Source: a virus
Virus record (IMG/VR): IMGVR_UViG_3300008963_000004
Location: 1 to 54,374 of that record
Direction: 5' to 3' (one strand)
Length of the DNA stretch: 54,374 nucleotides
Position 1 is the stretch's first letter. Each line of letters begins with the position of its first letter. Of this stretch, positions 38,923 to 54,339 are shown in pieces. A program made the position numbers and the translations under genes. The notes below the pieces were generated by a model. The model did no database searches and was not told the DNA's origin. It saw only the letters and a program-made list of their open reading frames with translations.

Positions 38923-39032
38923 AAAAGATTTGGCATATTTTAATATGGCCATATACTAGAATCAAAGAAAAGATTCAACTTCGTAAAAAATTAAAAGAAC
39001 TAAGAAAAAAGGATCCTTTTATATATCGATGA
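38907..39032 (+). CDS. 41-aa basic protein after primase
   Basis: Start ATGGTTTCA inside the primase end, stop overlapping the carbamoyltransferase ATG (ATGA). The peptide is W/P-bearing then strongly basic (IWHILIWPYTRIKEKIQL, then RKKLKELRKKDPFIY). Short proteins ending in LKKRDPFIY are recurrent in marine T4-like phages, and coding is supported by overlaps on both sides. A membrane-surface or nucleic-acid role is possible; function unknown. Confidence 0.7.
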   Translation: MVSILKKIWHILIWPYTRIKEKIQLRKKLKELRKKDPFIYR

Positions 39033-40531
39033 TTACTTGGGGAATATCAGCAAACAGTCATGATGCTGCATTAGCAGTATTCAATGATGATGGATTAGAA
39101 TTTGCCAGTCATAGCGAAAGATTCAGTGGAATAAAGAATGACCCTAATCTGCACAGTGATTTAATTGATTATGCTCGTCAATGGGGAGAACCAGACGAAG
39201 TTGTTTGGTATGAACGTCCTTTGGCTAAAAGCTTTAGACAACTTCGAGCAGGCCAAGGATTTAAATTTTTTGAAAACAACATCAAAGGTTATTTGCGTTC
39301 TTATGGAATAGACACTCCTATTCATTATATTGACCATCATTATTCACACGCTGCTGGTGGCTATTACACTTCACCGTTTGAAAAAGCCACTGTGCTTTGT
39401 TTGGACAGTATTGGCGAATTTGATACTATGACTGTATGGGATGCTACAGAAGAACAAGGTTTAAAAAAGATATTTTCGCAGAAATATCCTCATAGTATAG
39501 GATTGTGGTACAGTGCTATGACACAGAGAATAGGATTAAAGCCACAGGAAGACGAGTATATACTAATGGGTATGGCTGCATATGGCGATCCTCTTAGATT
39601 TTTTAATGAAATATTGCAGGATTTTTTCTATCCTGTAGACAGTAGCACTGGTTTGCATAGCTGGATACACATGTTACATGATACTCCTACAGTTAGATTG
39701 CGTCATAATTTACACAAAGGATGCATGTGGTGGAGGCCAGAACTTAACAACAAAAAAGATATCATAGATATAGCAGCCGCAGTCCAAGCAATATACGAAT
39801 ATCTGCTAAAATACATCAGTAACTGGGCTAGATCAAAATCGTCATCAGGCAATCTAGTTTTCGCAGGAGGTTGTGCACTGAATTGTTCGGCCAATAGTAA
39901 AATATACAAAGATTGGAACAATGTGCACATCATGCCCAATCCAGGCGACGCAGGCAGTGCAATAGGTGCAGTGCTTGCACACAAAAAACAATTCATGCCT
40001 ATGCCGCATGTTTTTACAGGTTATAACATTGTAGGAGATTATCCAGTTGAAGAAATTTTACACGAGTTGTTGGACACTGGTATTTGTGGTGTGGCCAACG
40101 GTCGAGCTGAATTTGGACCTAGAGCATTGGGCAACCGCAGCTTATTGGCAGACCCACGAAAAGATCATATCAAAGACACAGTTAATGCTATTAAACAGCG
40201 ACAGCAGTTTAGACCATTTGCGCCAGCAGTTTTGGAGGAACATGCATCTTCCTATTTCCACGGACCTGTCAGCCCATACATGCAATACACTGCAACTTGC
40301 ACGGATCCTGGATTACCTGCAATCACGCACAGGGACGGCACCAGTAGGGTACAGACAGTTTCTGCAAAAGAAAGCATGGGCTTTAGAAAACTGTTAGAAC
40401 GATGGTATGAAGAAACTGGCTGTCCTGTATTACTAAATACCTCGCTCAATATCAAAGGACGTCCTATGGTAAACACAGCCGATGATGCTAGAGAATTTGA
40501 AAACACATACGGAGTAAAAGTTTTTACATGA
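39029..40531 (+). CDS. NodU/CmcH-family carbamoyltransferase
   Basis: 500 aa. N-terminal WGISANSHDAALAVFNDDG and HHYSHAAGGYYTSPFEKATVLCLD (Kae1-like fold, with His ligands for metal), the EDEYILMGMAAYGDP loop, and a C-terminal ANGRAEFGPRALGNRSLLADPR (YrdC-like carbamoylation signature). Family members move a carbamoyl group to sugars or antibiotics. It probably acts on surface or DNA-modifying sugars (see glycan cassette). Slightly shorter than bacterial homologues (about 550-600). Confidence 0.88.
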   Translation: MITWGISANSHDAALAVFNDDGLEFASHSERFSGIKNDPNLHSDLIDYARQWGEPDEVVWYERPLAKSFRQLRAGQGFKFFENNIKGYLRSYGIDTPIHYIDHHYSHAAGGYYTSPFEKATVLCLDSIGEFDTMTVWDATEEQGLKKIFSQKYPHSIGLWYSAMTQRIGLKPQEDEYILMGMAAYGDPLRFFNEILQDFFYPVDSSTGLHSWIHMLHDTPTVRLRHNLHKGCMWWRPELNNKKDIIDIAAAVQAIYEYLLKYISNWARSKSSSGNLVFAGGCALNCSANSKIYKDWNNVHIMPNPGDAGSAIGAVLAHKKQFMPMPHVFTGYNIVGDYPVEEILHELLDTGICGVANGRAEFGPRALGNRSLLADPRKDHIKDTVNAIKQRQQFRPFAPAVLEEHASSYFHGPVSPYMQYTATCTDPGLPAITHRDGTSRVQTVSAKESMGFRKLLERWYEETGCPVLLNTSLNIKGRPMVNTADDAREFENTYGVKVFT

Positions 40532-45144: not shown

Positions 45145-45179
45145 CGTGTTGCCCTCTTGTGTGTGTTGCCCTACGCCGT

Positions 45180-47595: not shown

Positions 47596-47631
47596 CCGAA
47601 GTTTCCCTCTTGTGTGTTGCCCTATGCGTTG

Positions 47632-48117: not shown

Positions 48118-48153
48118 TGTGTTTCCCTCTGTTGTGTGTTGCCCTGTGCAGAC

Positions 48154-48399: not shown

Positions 48400-48428
48400 A
48401 ACTTAGCATCTGCACAGAGCAGTGTCAA
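48400..48428 (-). promoter_or_regulatory. Early promoter of the 57-aa gene (hairpin type)
   Basis: Minus strand TTGACA, 17-bp spacer, TAAGTT, the same module as at 48154, arms included. It overlaps the end of the next gene. Confidence 0.82.
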
Positions 48429-48758
48429 TATGGAAAATATTCAATCTCAGCTTTGGTTTCAGGATCTCTCCATTCACTGAGAATACTATCTCGGTTCACT
48501 CCTATCTTGCGAAGTGTGAATTCATTCATATGAGCAATCACTTCAGTTGGGCACAGTTCTCCTTGTTCCGCCAACTCCGTGGGATTTTGCAAAGTGTAAA
48601 AACCCAAACGATAGGGTTTTCCATCCAACCATTTGCAAGTCGTTGATGCCGTCGAGCCGAGCTTGCTGCAAAAATTCAAAGCGATCCTGCTCAACCCACA
48701 GTTCAACTCCTTGGAATTTGACCATAACATATTCAGGTTTTTGAAGGAAAAAATTCAT
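48425..48758 (-). CDS. Early gene broken by a one-base insertion
   Basis: From ATG 48758 (ribosome site GAGGG) the frame runs MNFFLQKPEYVMVKFQGVEL to LDGIND and then degenerates to a stop at 48543. In the other frame the sensible continuation WLDGKPYRLGFYTLQNPTEL leads to EIEYFPY and a stop at 48425. Removing one A from the AAA at 48632-48634 joins them into a ~110-aa protein (...INDLQWLDGKPY...). So the real product spans both frames. The function of the intact family is unknown. Confidence 0.65.
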
Positions 48759-48787
48759 CCTGTTGCCCTCTGTGTTGCTGTGTGTTT

Positions 48788-49531: not shown

Positions 49532-49560
49532 TTTATAGCACAGCACTGAGCCGTGATCAA
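49532..49560 (-). promoter_or_regulatory. Early promoter without an intact gene
   Basis: Minus strand TTGATC, 17-bp spacer, TATAAA, followed by AAAGGAGAT and no ATG. See the 49418-49492 ORF. Confidence 0.7.
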
Positions 49561-49580
49561 CAAAAAAATTACCAAATGTC

Positions 49581-49617
49581 AAAAAAAGCCCTTGCTGCGA
49601 GGGAACACAGCAAGGGC
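49581..49617 (-). terminator. Strong intrinsic terminator after the AAA ATPase
   Basis: Ten-bp stem GCCCTTGCTG / CAGCAAGGGC (49588-49597 with 49608-49617); on the minus strand seven T residues follow (49587-49581). Confidence 0.92.
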
Positions 49618-49786
49618 CTAGTGTAGGAGCAGAGCGTGAGGGCAACGTTTGCTCCTAGTGCACAGTTGGTCGAGGGCGGACCAACCATGTGTTACAGCAG
49701 CACCTGAGGGCACAAGGGCTACTGTTGTGCAGCACAGGAGCAGTGCTCAACTGTGCTGATTCGCCGTGCTGTCCACGGTCTTTTTG
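49581..49786 (-). ncRNA. Multi-hairpin RNA with CCCTC loops, ending in a terminator
   Basis: A ~200-nt gene-free segment between the AAA ATPase stop and a terminator, here read on the minus strand. Stems: CCGTG/CACGG near 49763-49777; CAGCACAG/CTGTGCTG (49730-49758); GTTGGTC/GACCAAC (49665-49685) with loop CGCCCTC; TAGGAGCA/TGCTCCTA (49624-49657) with TTGCCCTC in the loop; the terminator with TTCCCTC in its loop. CCCTC occurs four times at spacings of 34-39 nt. Many early mRNAs carry GAGGG as ribosome site. A regulatory RNA from the ATPase 3' UTR is inferred, not shown. Confidence 0.45.
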
Positions 49787-50797
49787 TTATCTGCTCATCA
49801 CAGTGTTTTCTGCAAACGCTTTCCAGTTCTGCGGGAACGCTTTTGCCAAGTCAGCAACTTTGAGAACAGTTCGAAGACTGAGTTCTCGCAGTCTGTGTTT
49901 GTGTTCGTCTACGAAATCAATGATTTCCATCTTGACATCCTGTGCTAAATCGTAATTATCCAGCATGCCGTCCTGAACAACTTGACGAATACGCAGCATC
50001 TTTTCTCGCTCTGTGTCAATGGTCAAGTCAATGTAGTGACAGCGCGATTCCAGTGCTTCCAGATGATCCTTCAACTTTTTGCTCTTGACACGATCAAACT
50101 TCAAGTTTGTGATAAAGATAGCCGAACCTTCAAAACGAAAGCTGTCAGGTACACCTTCATTGCGCAACTTGAAACTGTCTGTGTTCCAATGAATAGTGCG
50201 ATGCTTTTTTGAGTCCAGTGCTGCTTTCATGATGTTGAGACTGAGTTCATCTGAAAACACAGAATCACAGTCGTCGAACACAATCACATTGTCTCGGTCT
50301 GCATACTTGTAGAGTTTGACATACAAGCCGATTGCGCTCATTGCACCTTTCACGACTTCGTATTTCTTGGCGCCGCCCAGCGTCTCAACCATCTGATAAC
50401 GATCCAGCACTTCCTCTACACCGTGGCTCTTGCCAACACCTGGAGGACCTGATACGATCATTGCTCGAACATCGCCCTTCTTCACAGCTTTGGTCATTTC
50501 GTTGAGCATGCCAAAGCGAGTTCTCAGTCGTTCTACAATCTCGTCATCAGTCTCTTCGATCACTGGTTCCTTAACAGCAACAGCGGGGCCTTCAGTGACT
50601 TCGTAATCATCCTCACTGTCACAGAGGATCTTGATGTTGTGATCAGGAAAGCCAGGATGTGAACTGCCGTTTACAGTAACATAGCCACCGCGCTTGCCTG
50701 TTTTGAACCCTTCGACCAGCTCAAAGCTCATGCCGTTTACGTCGGTAGGAACTCCGCGCAGTTTGTAGCGTCCGTTGATGATAGTGATTGTGCTCAT
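49787..50797 (-). CDS. AAA+ family ATPase
   Basis: 336 aa. An N-terminal ~70-residue domain (small beta-type, INGRYKLRGVPTDVNG) is followed by an AAA+ core: Walker A GPPGVGKS at residues 117-124, Walker B NVIVFDDCD near 170, sensor IFITN near 228, and an arginine-rich segment near 250. ATPases of this kind are common in T4-like marine phages. The role, protein remodelling or DNA-linked, is not known. Own promoter (50822), GAGGG ribosome site, strong terminator. Confidence 0.85.
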   Translation of the reverse strand: MSTITIINGRYKLRGVPTDVNGMSFELVEGFKTGKRGGYVTVNGSSHPGFPDHNIKILCDSEDDYEVTEGPAVAVKEPVIEETDDEIVERLRTRFGMLNEMTKAVKKGDVRAMIVSGPPGVGKSHGVEEVLDRYQMVETLGGAKKYEVVKGAMSAIGLYVKLYKYADRDNVIVFDDCDSVFSDELSLNIMKAALDSKKHRTIHWNTDSFKLRNEGVPDSFRFEGSAIFITNLKFDRVKSKKLKDHLEALESRCHYIDLTIDTEREKMLRIRQVVQDGMLDNYDLAQDVKMEIIDFVDEHKHRLRELSLRTVLKVADLAKAFPQNWKAFAENTVMSR

Positions 50798-50821
50798 GCA
50801 TTTCCCTCTTTGTGTTCAATC

Positions 50822-50850
50822 AGTATACTGTGATTGTTCTCTGTTGTCAA
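50822..50850 (-). promoter_or_regulatory. Early promoter of the AAA ATPase
   Basis: Minus strand TTGACA, 17-bp spacer, TATACT. CAATC ... GATTG and the CAGTATACTG palindrome centre on the -10 box. Confidence 0.78.
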
Positions 50851-51137: not shown

Positions 51138-51214
51138 TGGCGCTCCCGGAAGGACTCGAACCCTCAACCTAGGCATTAGAAGTGCCTTGCTCTTTCCAGT
51201 TGAGCTACAGAAGC
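51138..51214 (-). tRNA. tRNA-Arg (anticodon UCU)
   Basis: Minus strand. Acceptor GCTTCTG / CGGGAGC, D-arm GCTC...GAGC, anticodon arm AGGCA-CTTCTAA-TGCCT (UCU at positions 34-36), T-arm GAGGG-TTCGAGT-CCTTC, discriminator G and encoded CCA. Reads AGA/AGG. The same promoter as tRNA-Leu (51328). Confidence 0.92.
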
Positions 51215-51219
51215 GTATA

Positions 51220-51305
51220 TGGTGCGGGCGGTGGGACTCGAACCCACAATCCATTAAGGCGACAGATTTTAAGTCTGTTGAGTATACCAATTCCTCCACG
51301 CCCGC
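51220..51305 (-). tRNA. tRNA-Leu (anticodon UAA)
   Basis: Minus strand. Acceptor GCGGGCG / CGCCCGC, anticodon arm ACAGA-CTTAAAA-TCTGT (UAA), a long variable arm as in leucine tRNAs, T-arm GTGGG-TTCGAGT-CCCAC, discriminator A and encoded CCA. Reads TTA and TTG. Five nt before tRNA-Arg. Confidence 0.93.
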
Positions 51306-52028: not shown

Positions 52029-52064
52029 TGTGTATTCCCTCTTTGTGTGTTGCTCTATGTGTTA

Positions 52065-53166: not shown

Positions 53167-53201
53167 TTGCAAACCCTCTTGCTGTGTTGCCCTACCCTTA
53201 T

Positions 53202-54311: not shown

Positions 54312-54339
54312 AGCGTGTATCCCTCTCTGCTATGTGTTG

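Follow-up and report, generated by a model that had tools for sequence, protein, structure and literature searches.

A folded RNA behind an ATPase gene of giant-phage relatives carries loops complementary to early ribosome sites and is probably a built-in switch for early genes

The early gene cluster and the RNA behind the ATPase gene

The DNA that we analyzed, hereafter called the window, is one linear IMG/VR virus contig of 54,374 nt. It is from a contractile-tailed phage, whose terminase shares 55% identity with the terminase of Pseudomonas phage PA5oct. The first ~42 kb mostly contain structural and replication genes, chiefly on the plus strand. The region from ~44 to 54 kb contains small genes on the minus strand, several of which are preceded by a TTGACA-17-TATAAT-like promoter, and we call them early on the basis of their size, position, and promoters. 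One of them encodes an AAA ATPase, and the segment directly behind it folds into a chain of hairpins, hereafter called the array. The features of the contig that concern us are as follows.

39029-40531, plus strand: gene for a carbamoyltransferase of the nodulation type (Nol-like; phrog_1601, E 1.8e-101)
51141-51214 and 51223-51305, minus strand: two tRNA genes (Rfam tRNA) within the early cluster; tRNAs lie near the ATPase gene in several relatives as well
50822-50850, minus strand: sigma-70-like promoter TTGACA-17-TATACT of the ATPase/array transcript, at the same position in 86 of 89 relatives
49787-50797, minus strand: AAA ATPase gene (T4 NrdC.10-like; phrog_1250), a homolog of nrdC.10 from Acinetobacter phage Acj9
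49581-49786, minus strand: RNA of several hairpins that forms the 3′ UTR of the ATPase mRNA; its predicted fold has a terminator and four apical loops with CCCUC, and it is kept downstream of the ATPase gene in relatives
49764-49778, minus strand: predicted hairpin 1 (CCGUG/CACGG), without CCCUC
49730-49758, minus strand: predicted hairpin 2 (CAGCACAG.../CUGUGCUG), without CCCUC
49694-49725, minus strand: predicted hairpin 3, loop UGCCCU(C)
49661-49689, minus strand: predicted hairpin 4, loop CGCCCUC
49624-49657, minus strand: predicted hairpin 5, loop UGCCCUC in the context GUUGCCCUCAC, the complement of GAGGGCAAC
49580-49618, minus strand: predicted hairpin 6, the intrinsic terminator, loop UUCCCU(C), the complement of GAGGGAA

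The original prediction, made from the letters of the window, described a string of hairpins with a strong terminator on the minus strand behind the ATPase gene, and the computed fold agrees with it. Six hairpins lie between 49786 and 49581, and the last is a 13-bp terminator with a T-run. The minimum free energy of the stretch 49560-49800 is -101 kcal/mol, as compared to a shuffled mean of -72.6 ± 4.4 (z = -6.5), and none of 200 shuffles folds as well. The four copies of CCCTC start at 49710, 49676, 49642, and 49603, with the predicted spacing of 34 to 39 nt (34, 34, and 39). The prediction also placed three of these copies in loops; the loop placement is correct but the count is too low, as all four are apical. 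Elsewhere in the window, CCCTC is nearly absent on the strand of the array RNA.

How is the array transcribed? A strong sigma-70-like promoter, of the same kind as those of the early genes, precedes the ATPase gene in 86 of 89 lineages, while none of the 89 has a promoter for the array itself in the 150 nt before the ATPase stop codon. The array is thus the 3′ UTR of the ATPase mRNA, and since its promoter is of the early type, it is probably made early, together with its targets. In the relatives with CCCUC loops (the C class), a new promoter follows the array in 32 of 35 cases.

The sequence complementary to the loops, GAGGG, occupies the Shine-Dalgarno (SD) position at 10 of the 24 minus-strand early starts, and at none of the 41 late genes. 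The ten sites are listed below.

54321-54325, minus strand: GAGGGAT site of gene 53784, 6-nt best complementarity
53174-53178, minus strand: GAGGG(T) site of gene 52846, 5-nt best complementarity
52037-52041, minus strand: GAGGGAA site of gene 51756, 7-nt best complementarity
50804-50808, minus strand: the ATPase gene's own GAGGG(AA) site (candidate autoregulation), 7-nt match to the terminator loop
49399-49403, minus strand: GAGGGAA site of gene 49137, 7-nt best complementarity
48766-48770, minus strand: GAGGGCAAC site before ATG 48758, 8-nt match to the hairpin 5 loop
48373-48377, minus strand: GAGGGAA site of gene 48190, 7-nt best complementarity
48125-48129, minus strand: GAGGGAA site of gene 47662, 7-nt best complementarity
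47605-47609, minus strand: GAGGGAA site of gene 47173, 7-nt best complementarity
45152-45156, minus strand: GAGGGCAAC site of gene 44929, 8-nt match to the hairpin 5 loop

The match of the terminator loop to GAGGGAA, which had been predicted for the genes 47173, 47662, 48190, 49137, 49787, and 51756, is present at all of them, and in these six genes, including the ATPase gene, the best complementarity is 7 nt. The sites of 52846 and 53784 come in addition to the predicted ones. Another loop had been matched to GAGGGCAAC in two genes; this holds for 44929, but the second site does not belong to 48425, as it precedes ATG 48758 of an ORF in another frame (48543-48758). In the minus-strand region 48425-48758, this ATG is out of frame with the longer ORF 48425-48730, and the two ORFs look like the N- and C-terminal parts of one gene, split by a frameshift or a sequencing error.

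The best loop-site duplexes at the GAGGG sites of the window have predicted energies of -11.4 to -14.9 kcal/mol, as compared to -6.3 to -7.0 kcal/mol for the 16S anti-SD at the same sites and about -9 kcal/mol at the ordinary sites of the cluster. The fit in the window is incomplete: most of the sites read GAGGGA and three of the four loops GCCCUC, so that only the terminator loop, UUCCCUC, offers a partner for the sixth base.

Loop and site codes in related phages

A folded RNA behind the ATPase gene, with loops complementary to early ribosome sites, is found in many uncultured giant-phage relatives. The search with the ATPase yielded 80 loci, nearly all of which carry a chain of GCCCUC-loop hairpins right after the ATPase stop codon, and the ribosome sites at these GCCCUC-array loci read GAGGGCAA. 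In a more distant set (L058 and L064-L076), the loops are (GA)UUCGCUCC(C) and the sites are GGAGCGAA. A pattern search for paired GATTCGCTCCC, which is independent of the ATPase, found 67 stretches, and the C-terminus of the ATPase lies directly upstream in 45 of the 45 examined. The same scan of genome contigs, made for host copies, returned 34 stretches; several are dispersed repeats, and GGAGCGA start sites occur at none of them. One such repeat, CGCGAATCACAGATTCGCTCCCACA, occurs on Natronospirales MAG22 contigs (L185, L191, L202, L204, L211, L214, and L216); it contains GATTCGCTCCC by coincidence, and GGAGCGA starts are absent there.

We counted loops and sites after dereplicating the contigs at 93% ATPase identity; the gene caller prefers starts with an SD-like sequence, equally in both classes. 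The 43 contigs with (G)CCCUC arrays have 273 GAGGG and 6 GGAGCG sites (42 concordant, 1 tie), whereas the 31 contigs with (A)UUCGCUCC arrays, the G class, have 7 GAGGG and 105 GGAGCG sites (28 concordant, 3 ties). In the C class, GAGGGC lies upstream of 219 of 973 genes, more than any other 6-mer, and the 6-mer that occurs most often in the loops is its reverse complement. The leading upstream 6-mer of the G class is AGGAGC, followed by GGAGCG, which overlaps with it. Other lineages carry mixed or further codes. L058 and L297 have both kinds of loops together with both kinds of sites (GGAGCGAA and GAGGGU). In L299 and L300, the loop AUCCUCGCUCC is complementary to both of their sites, GGAGCGA and AAGCGAGGA. 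The L295 loop UUACCCUCGCU matches GAGGGUAA and AGCGAGG, and UUUACCCUCGCUC occurs there together with AAAGCGAGGU and GAGGGUAA. L425 combines UGCCCU loops with AAAGGGCAAA.

Up to ~18 genes per locus share a loop-matching site. In seven contigs of 98-365 kb, analyzed in whole or in part, these sites are found chiefly in the ~20 kb surrounding the array, and the sites elsewhere are ordinary. The tail of the 16S rRNA reads 3′-AUUCCUCCACU-5′. The conserved extension of the sites (GC.., CGAA) has no partner in this tail, while it pairs with the loops. In several relatives (L315, L316, L322, L324, L354-L356, L401, and L403-L412), some GGAGCGAA sites appear within the loop of a 7-12-bp hairpin on the mRNA strand, seen as TTCGCTCC hairpins on the minus strand; such a placement would favor loop-loop kissing with the array.

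Are the loops and the sites also lost together? For 119 ATPase loci at which no array follows the ATPase gene immediately, we looked further downstream. Among them, a hairpin CC-GAUUCGCUCCC-GG occurs ~600-930 nt past the ATPase gene, after the next gene and just before a terminator. Hairpin and sites are both present at 80 of these loci, neither at 28, sites only at 11, and a hairpin only at none. Among the loci listed, at least 10 of the 11 with sites only show less than 940 nt after the ATPase gene. In one large clade (L301-L373), the ATPase gene and the hairpin are separated by a second, conserved gene that ends in ...GITL or GITI and lies ~50-800 nt past the ATPase gene.

The same tally was made for 118 representatives at 90% identity or less, leaving out two truncated contigs. 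The loop and the sites are both present in 85, four of which (L016, L017, L038, and L049) escaped the automatic stem rule and were classified manually, as they contain CCCTC. Nine have the loop with fewer than two matching sites; several of these are short contigs, and L150, L182, L382, and L024 are not short. Neither is present in 22. No lineage is crossed, the two loop classes match the two site classes, and the comparison of related phages that the original prediction had proposed comes out in its favor. Loops lost from relatives that keep the GAGGG sites would have spoken against it; sites without a loop occur in none of the representatives tallied, and the idea is not refuted.

These counts have to be read along the ATPase tree. 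The CCCUC type falls into one group of 39 rows (99*), with three array-less, site-less rows inside, and the UUCGCUCC type falls in two places, with the array-less L364 nested among UUCGCUCC rows. The tree has about one well-supported code switch and ~2-4 independent pairs for presence and absence, and we dropped the claim of many independent switches after the tree tests. The one to four independent contrasts are nearly always concordant and never opposed. As they are so few, the pooled Fisher p values (7e-17 and 3e-24) overstate independence.

Pairing, its outcome, and other explanations

Several properties favor RNA over DNA as the form in which the array motif would act. It is complementary to the sites in every copy (CCCTC 112 of 112, TCGCTCC 90 of 90; orientation 202:0), and it is unpaired in 177 of the 191 copies in the single-class arrays of relatives, with median z values of -4.0 and -2.8. 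The UUCGCUCC stems of the G class covary: pair 2 is canonical in 99%, as compared to 69% after shuffling, with five pair types and compensatory changes. In the CCCUC hairpins, the stem registers differ between arrays, which limits a fixed-register comparison. The site motif is fixed relative to the start codon and centered on the SD core. Moreover, the sixth site base opposite a loop G is U rather than A in 21:11 cases, as compared to 53:88 at ordinary SDs (p = 0.005), which fits a G-U wobble with the loop G.

The loop-site covariation in the relatives lends strong support to the idea that the loops pair with ribosome sites of the same phage, and from the sequences we consider this pairing very likely. 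The RNA is probably a built-in switch for the early genes, and we propose the following mechanism. The ATPase mRNA would present several identical single-stranded loops in its structured 3′ UTR, which is probably released as a small RNA. Each loop would pair in trans over 6-9 nt with the phage-specific extended SD sequence that the genes of the surrounding early cluster, including the ATPase gene, have in common, and the pairing would block 30S binding. The RNA, made from an early-type promoter along with its targets, would accumulate as a stable species and damp or shut off early-gene translation as well as its own synthesis, and the late genes, which lack the extension, would be unaffected. 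In relatives, the ATPase gene's own site usually matches the loops over 6-9 nt, which predicts autoregulation. We infer this outcome and its timing chiefly by analogy with RNAIII and LhrC and, functionally, with T4 RegB (see below), and we consider it likely that masking of the SD represses the early genes in a delayed negative feedback. Given the array's transcription, such delayed feedback probably describes it better than a late-expressed switch.

The strongest alternative accepts the pairing and gives it a different outcome: the loops might shield the early sites from a RegB-like SD nuclease, or stabilize or tether the early mRNAs, so that the RNA helps or times the early genes. In T4, RegB cleaves early translation initiation regions at GGAG (PMC3014915), a sequence that is also part of the G-class sites, and all of the sequence evidence for pairing fits equally well. 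The loop, however, covers the SD core, which must be free for 30S binding, and known RNAs whose C-rich loops cover the SD core repress (PMC2837412, PMC4132741). We therefore regard a non-repressive role as unlikely.

Less probable still is a phage or host RNA-binding protein that reads the C-rich loops, the SD extension having separate causes (ribosome preference or duplicated leader cassettes) and the complementarity arising by chance in two clades. The switches that are phylogenetically independent are indeed few, and the early leaders look duplicated, as promoter-SD cassettes. Against this reading stand the perfect complementarity over 6-9 nt, which is seen in several different codes and for two codes side by side within one lineage, the joint loss of loops and sites, and the absence of a 16S rRNA match to the extension.

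We give an even smaller chance to an ordinary terminator or stabilizing 3′ UTR with no role in trans and, at most, an action in cis on the ATPase gene's own SD. The array is in fact the ATPase 3′ UTR. In the divergent L447, scored as array-less, a hairpin loop CUAGCUCCU at +56 after the ATPase stop codon has a 9-nt match to the SD of the lineage's own ATPase gene, with few other matching sites. In the divergent L440, an unpaired ACACACUCC at +5, outside the predicted loops, matches GGAGUGUGU of its own ATPase SD. Against an effect confined to one gene stand the matching sites in up to ~18 genes per locus and the array-less lineages, which lack the matching site throughout the locus. The single case of L447 suggests that the proposed lock-and-key system may have grown from the autoregulation of one ATPase mRNA.

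Finally, the motif could be an operator in double-stranded DNA to which a regulator of the early genes binds, with the array copies as extra or decoy sites and the RNA irrelevant; its copies do occur close to early promoters and within a single cluster, and phages use repeated DNA sites, but we rejected this least credible reading because it explains neither the one-way orientation, nor the apical loops of covarying hairpins, nor the start-fixed, SD-centered sites, nor the preference for U over A that fits wobble pairing.

Known systems and significance

The closest parallels to the proposed repression come from bacteria. In Staphylococcus aureus RNAIII, the C-rich hairpin loops 7, 13, and 14 block translation initiation on several mRNAs by binding to their G-rich ribosome sites (PMC2837412). 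The array resembles RNAIII in that one structured RNA has several C-rich unpaired loops, complementary to several SD regions beyond chance. RNAIII, however, is bacterial and quorum-induced, mixes long duplexes with loop-loop contacts and RNase III, and has a handful of host-gene targets, whereas the array is phage-encoded, with near-identical loops, a private extended SD of the phage's own early regulon, and lineage-specific codes. The UCCC sites of Listeria LhrC, which lie in loops and in a single-stranded stretch, are redundant, and any of them can bind to an SD region (PMC4132741). LhrC and the other UCCC-motif sRNAs (RsaE, SprD, and FsrA) are host sRNAs with multiple gene copies and without a genome-wide matching SD extension, while the array is a phage 3′ UTR. 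A protein sponge of the CsrB/RsmZ type, whose GGA loops are identical to the SD targets, is excluded, as the array motif is complementary to the SDs in 202 of 202 copies.

Among phages, T4 inactivates many early mRNAs post-transcriptionally at their ribosome sites through RegB, and regB is autocontrolled via its own SD (PMC3014915). RegB and RegA are proteins, a nuclease and an RNA-binding repressor, respectively, whereas the array is a candidate antisense-loop RNA. Cluster K mycobacteriophages carry an extended SD, GGGATAGGAGCCC (SAS/ESAS), of unknown function before many non-structural genes, and its outer bases cannot pair with 16S rRNA (PMC3203893). It is likewise a phage-specific extended SD with conserved bases that 16S rRNA cannot read, but the phages and the sequences are unrelated (13 bp there, GAGGGCAA or GGAGCGAA here), and no complementary loop RNA was found in ~48-50 kb of TM4 and of Adephagia.

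The search with Rfam 15 for homology to RNAIII/LhrC-type or phage RNA families gave no match above the gathering score, other than tRNA, in the window and ten relatives. In the nearest named phages (PA5oct-like, Straboviridae, and Vibrio D479), the ATPase is present, and the array and the extended SD are absent from the stretches examined; a direct DNA search of named phages gave nothing relevant. In the open-access papers covered by our search, we found no report of a phage RNA whose loops are complementary to SDs of the same phage. The working principle is thus known from bacterial sRNAs, and the virus-encoded, regulon-wide, lineage-coded form appears to be new.

What is known of early-to-late control in lytic phages concerns mainly transcription factors and proteins that act on RNA, among them RegA and RegB. 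If our proposal is correct, the array would be a regulon-wide antisense switch, in which a phage RNA reads a tag in the phage's own early ribosome sites. The codes of the relatives would form a naturally occurring set of orthogonal loop/site pairs: GCCCUC/GAGGGC, UUCGCUCC/GGAGCGAA, UCCUCGCUCC/GCGAGGA, and UUACCCUC/GAGGGUAA. The switch would also offer a testable reason for conserved SD extensions that the ribosome cannot read, a point raised for the Cluster K mycobacteriophages (PMC3203893). More broadly, we lean toward the view that this is a widespread form of virus-encoded translational control, in which a lineage-private, multi-loop 3′ UTR RNA and an SD tag of the early regulon co-evolve, switch, and vanish together.
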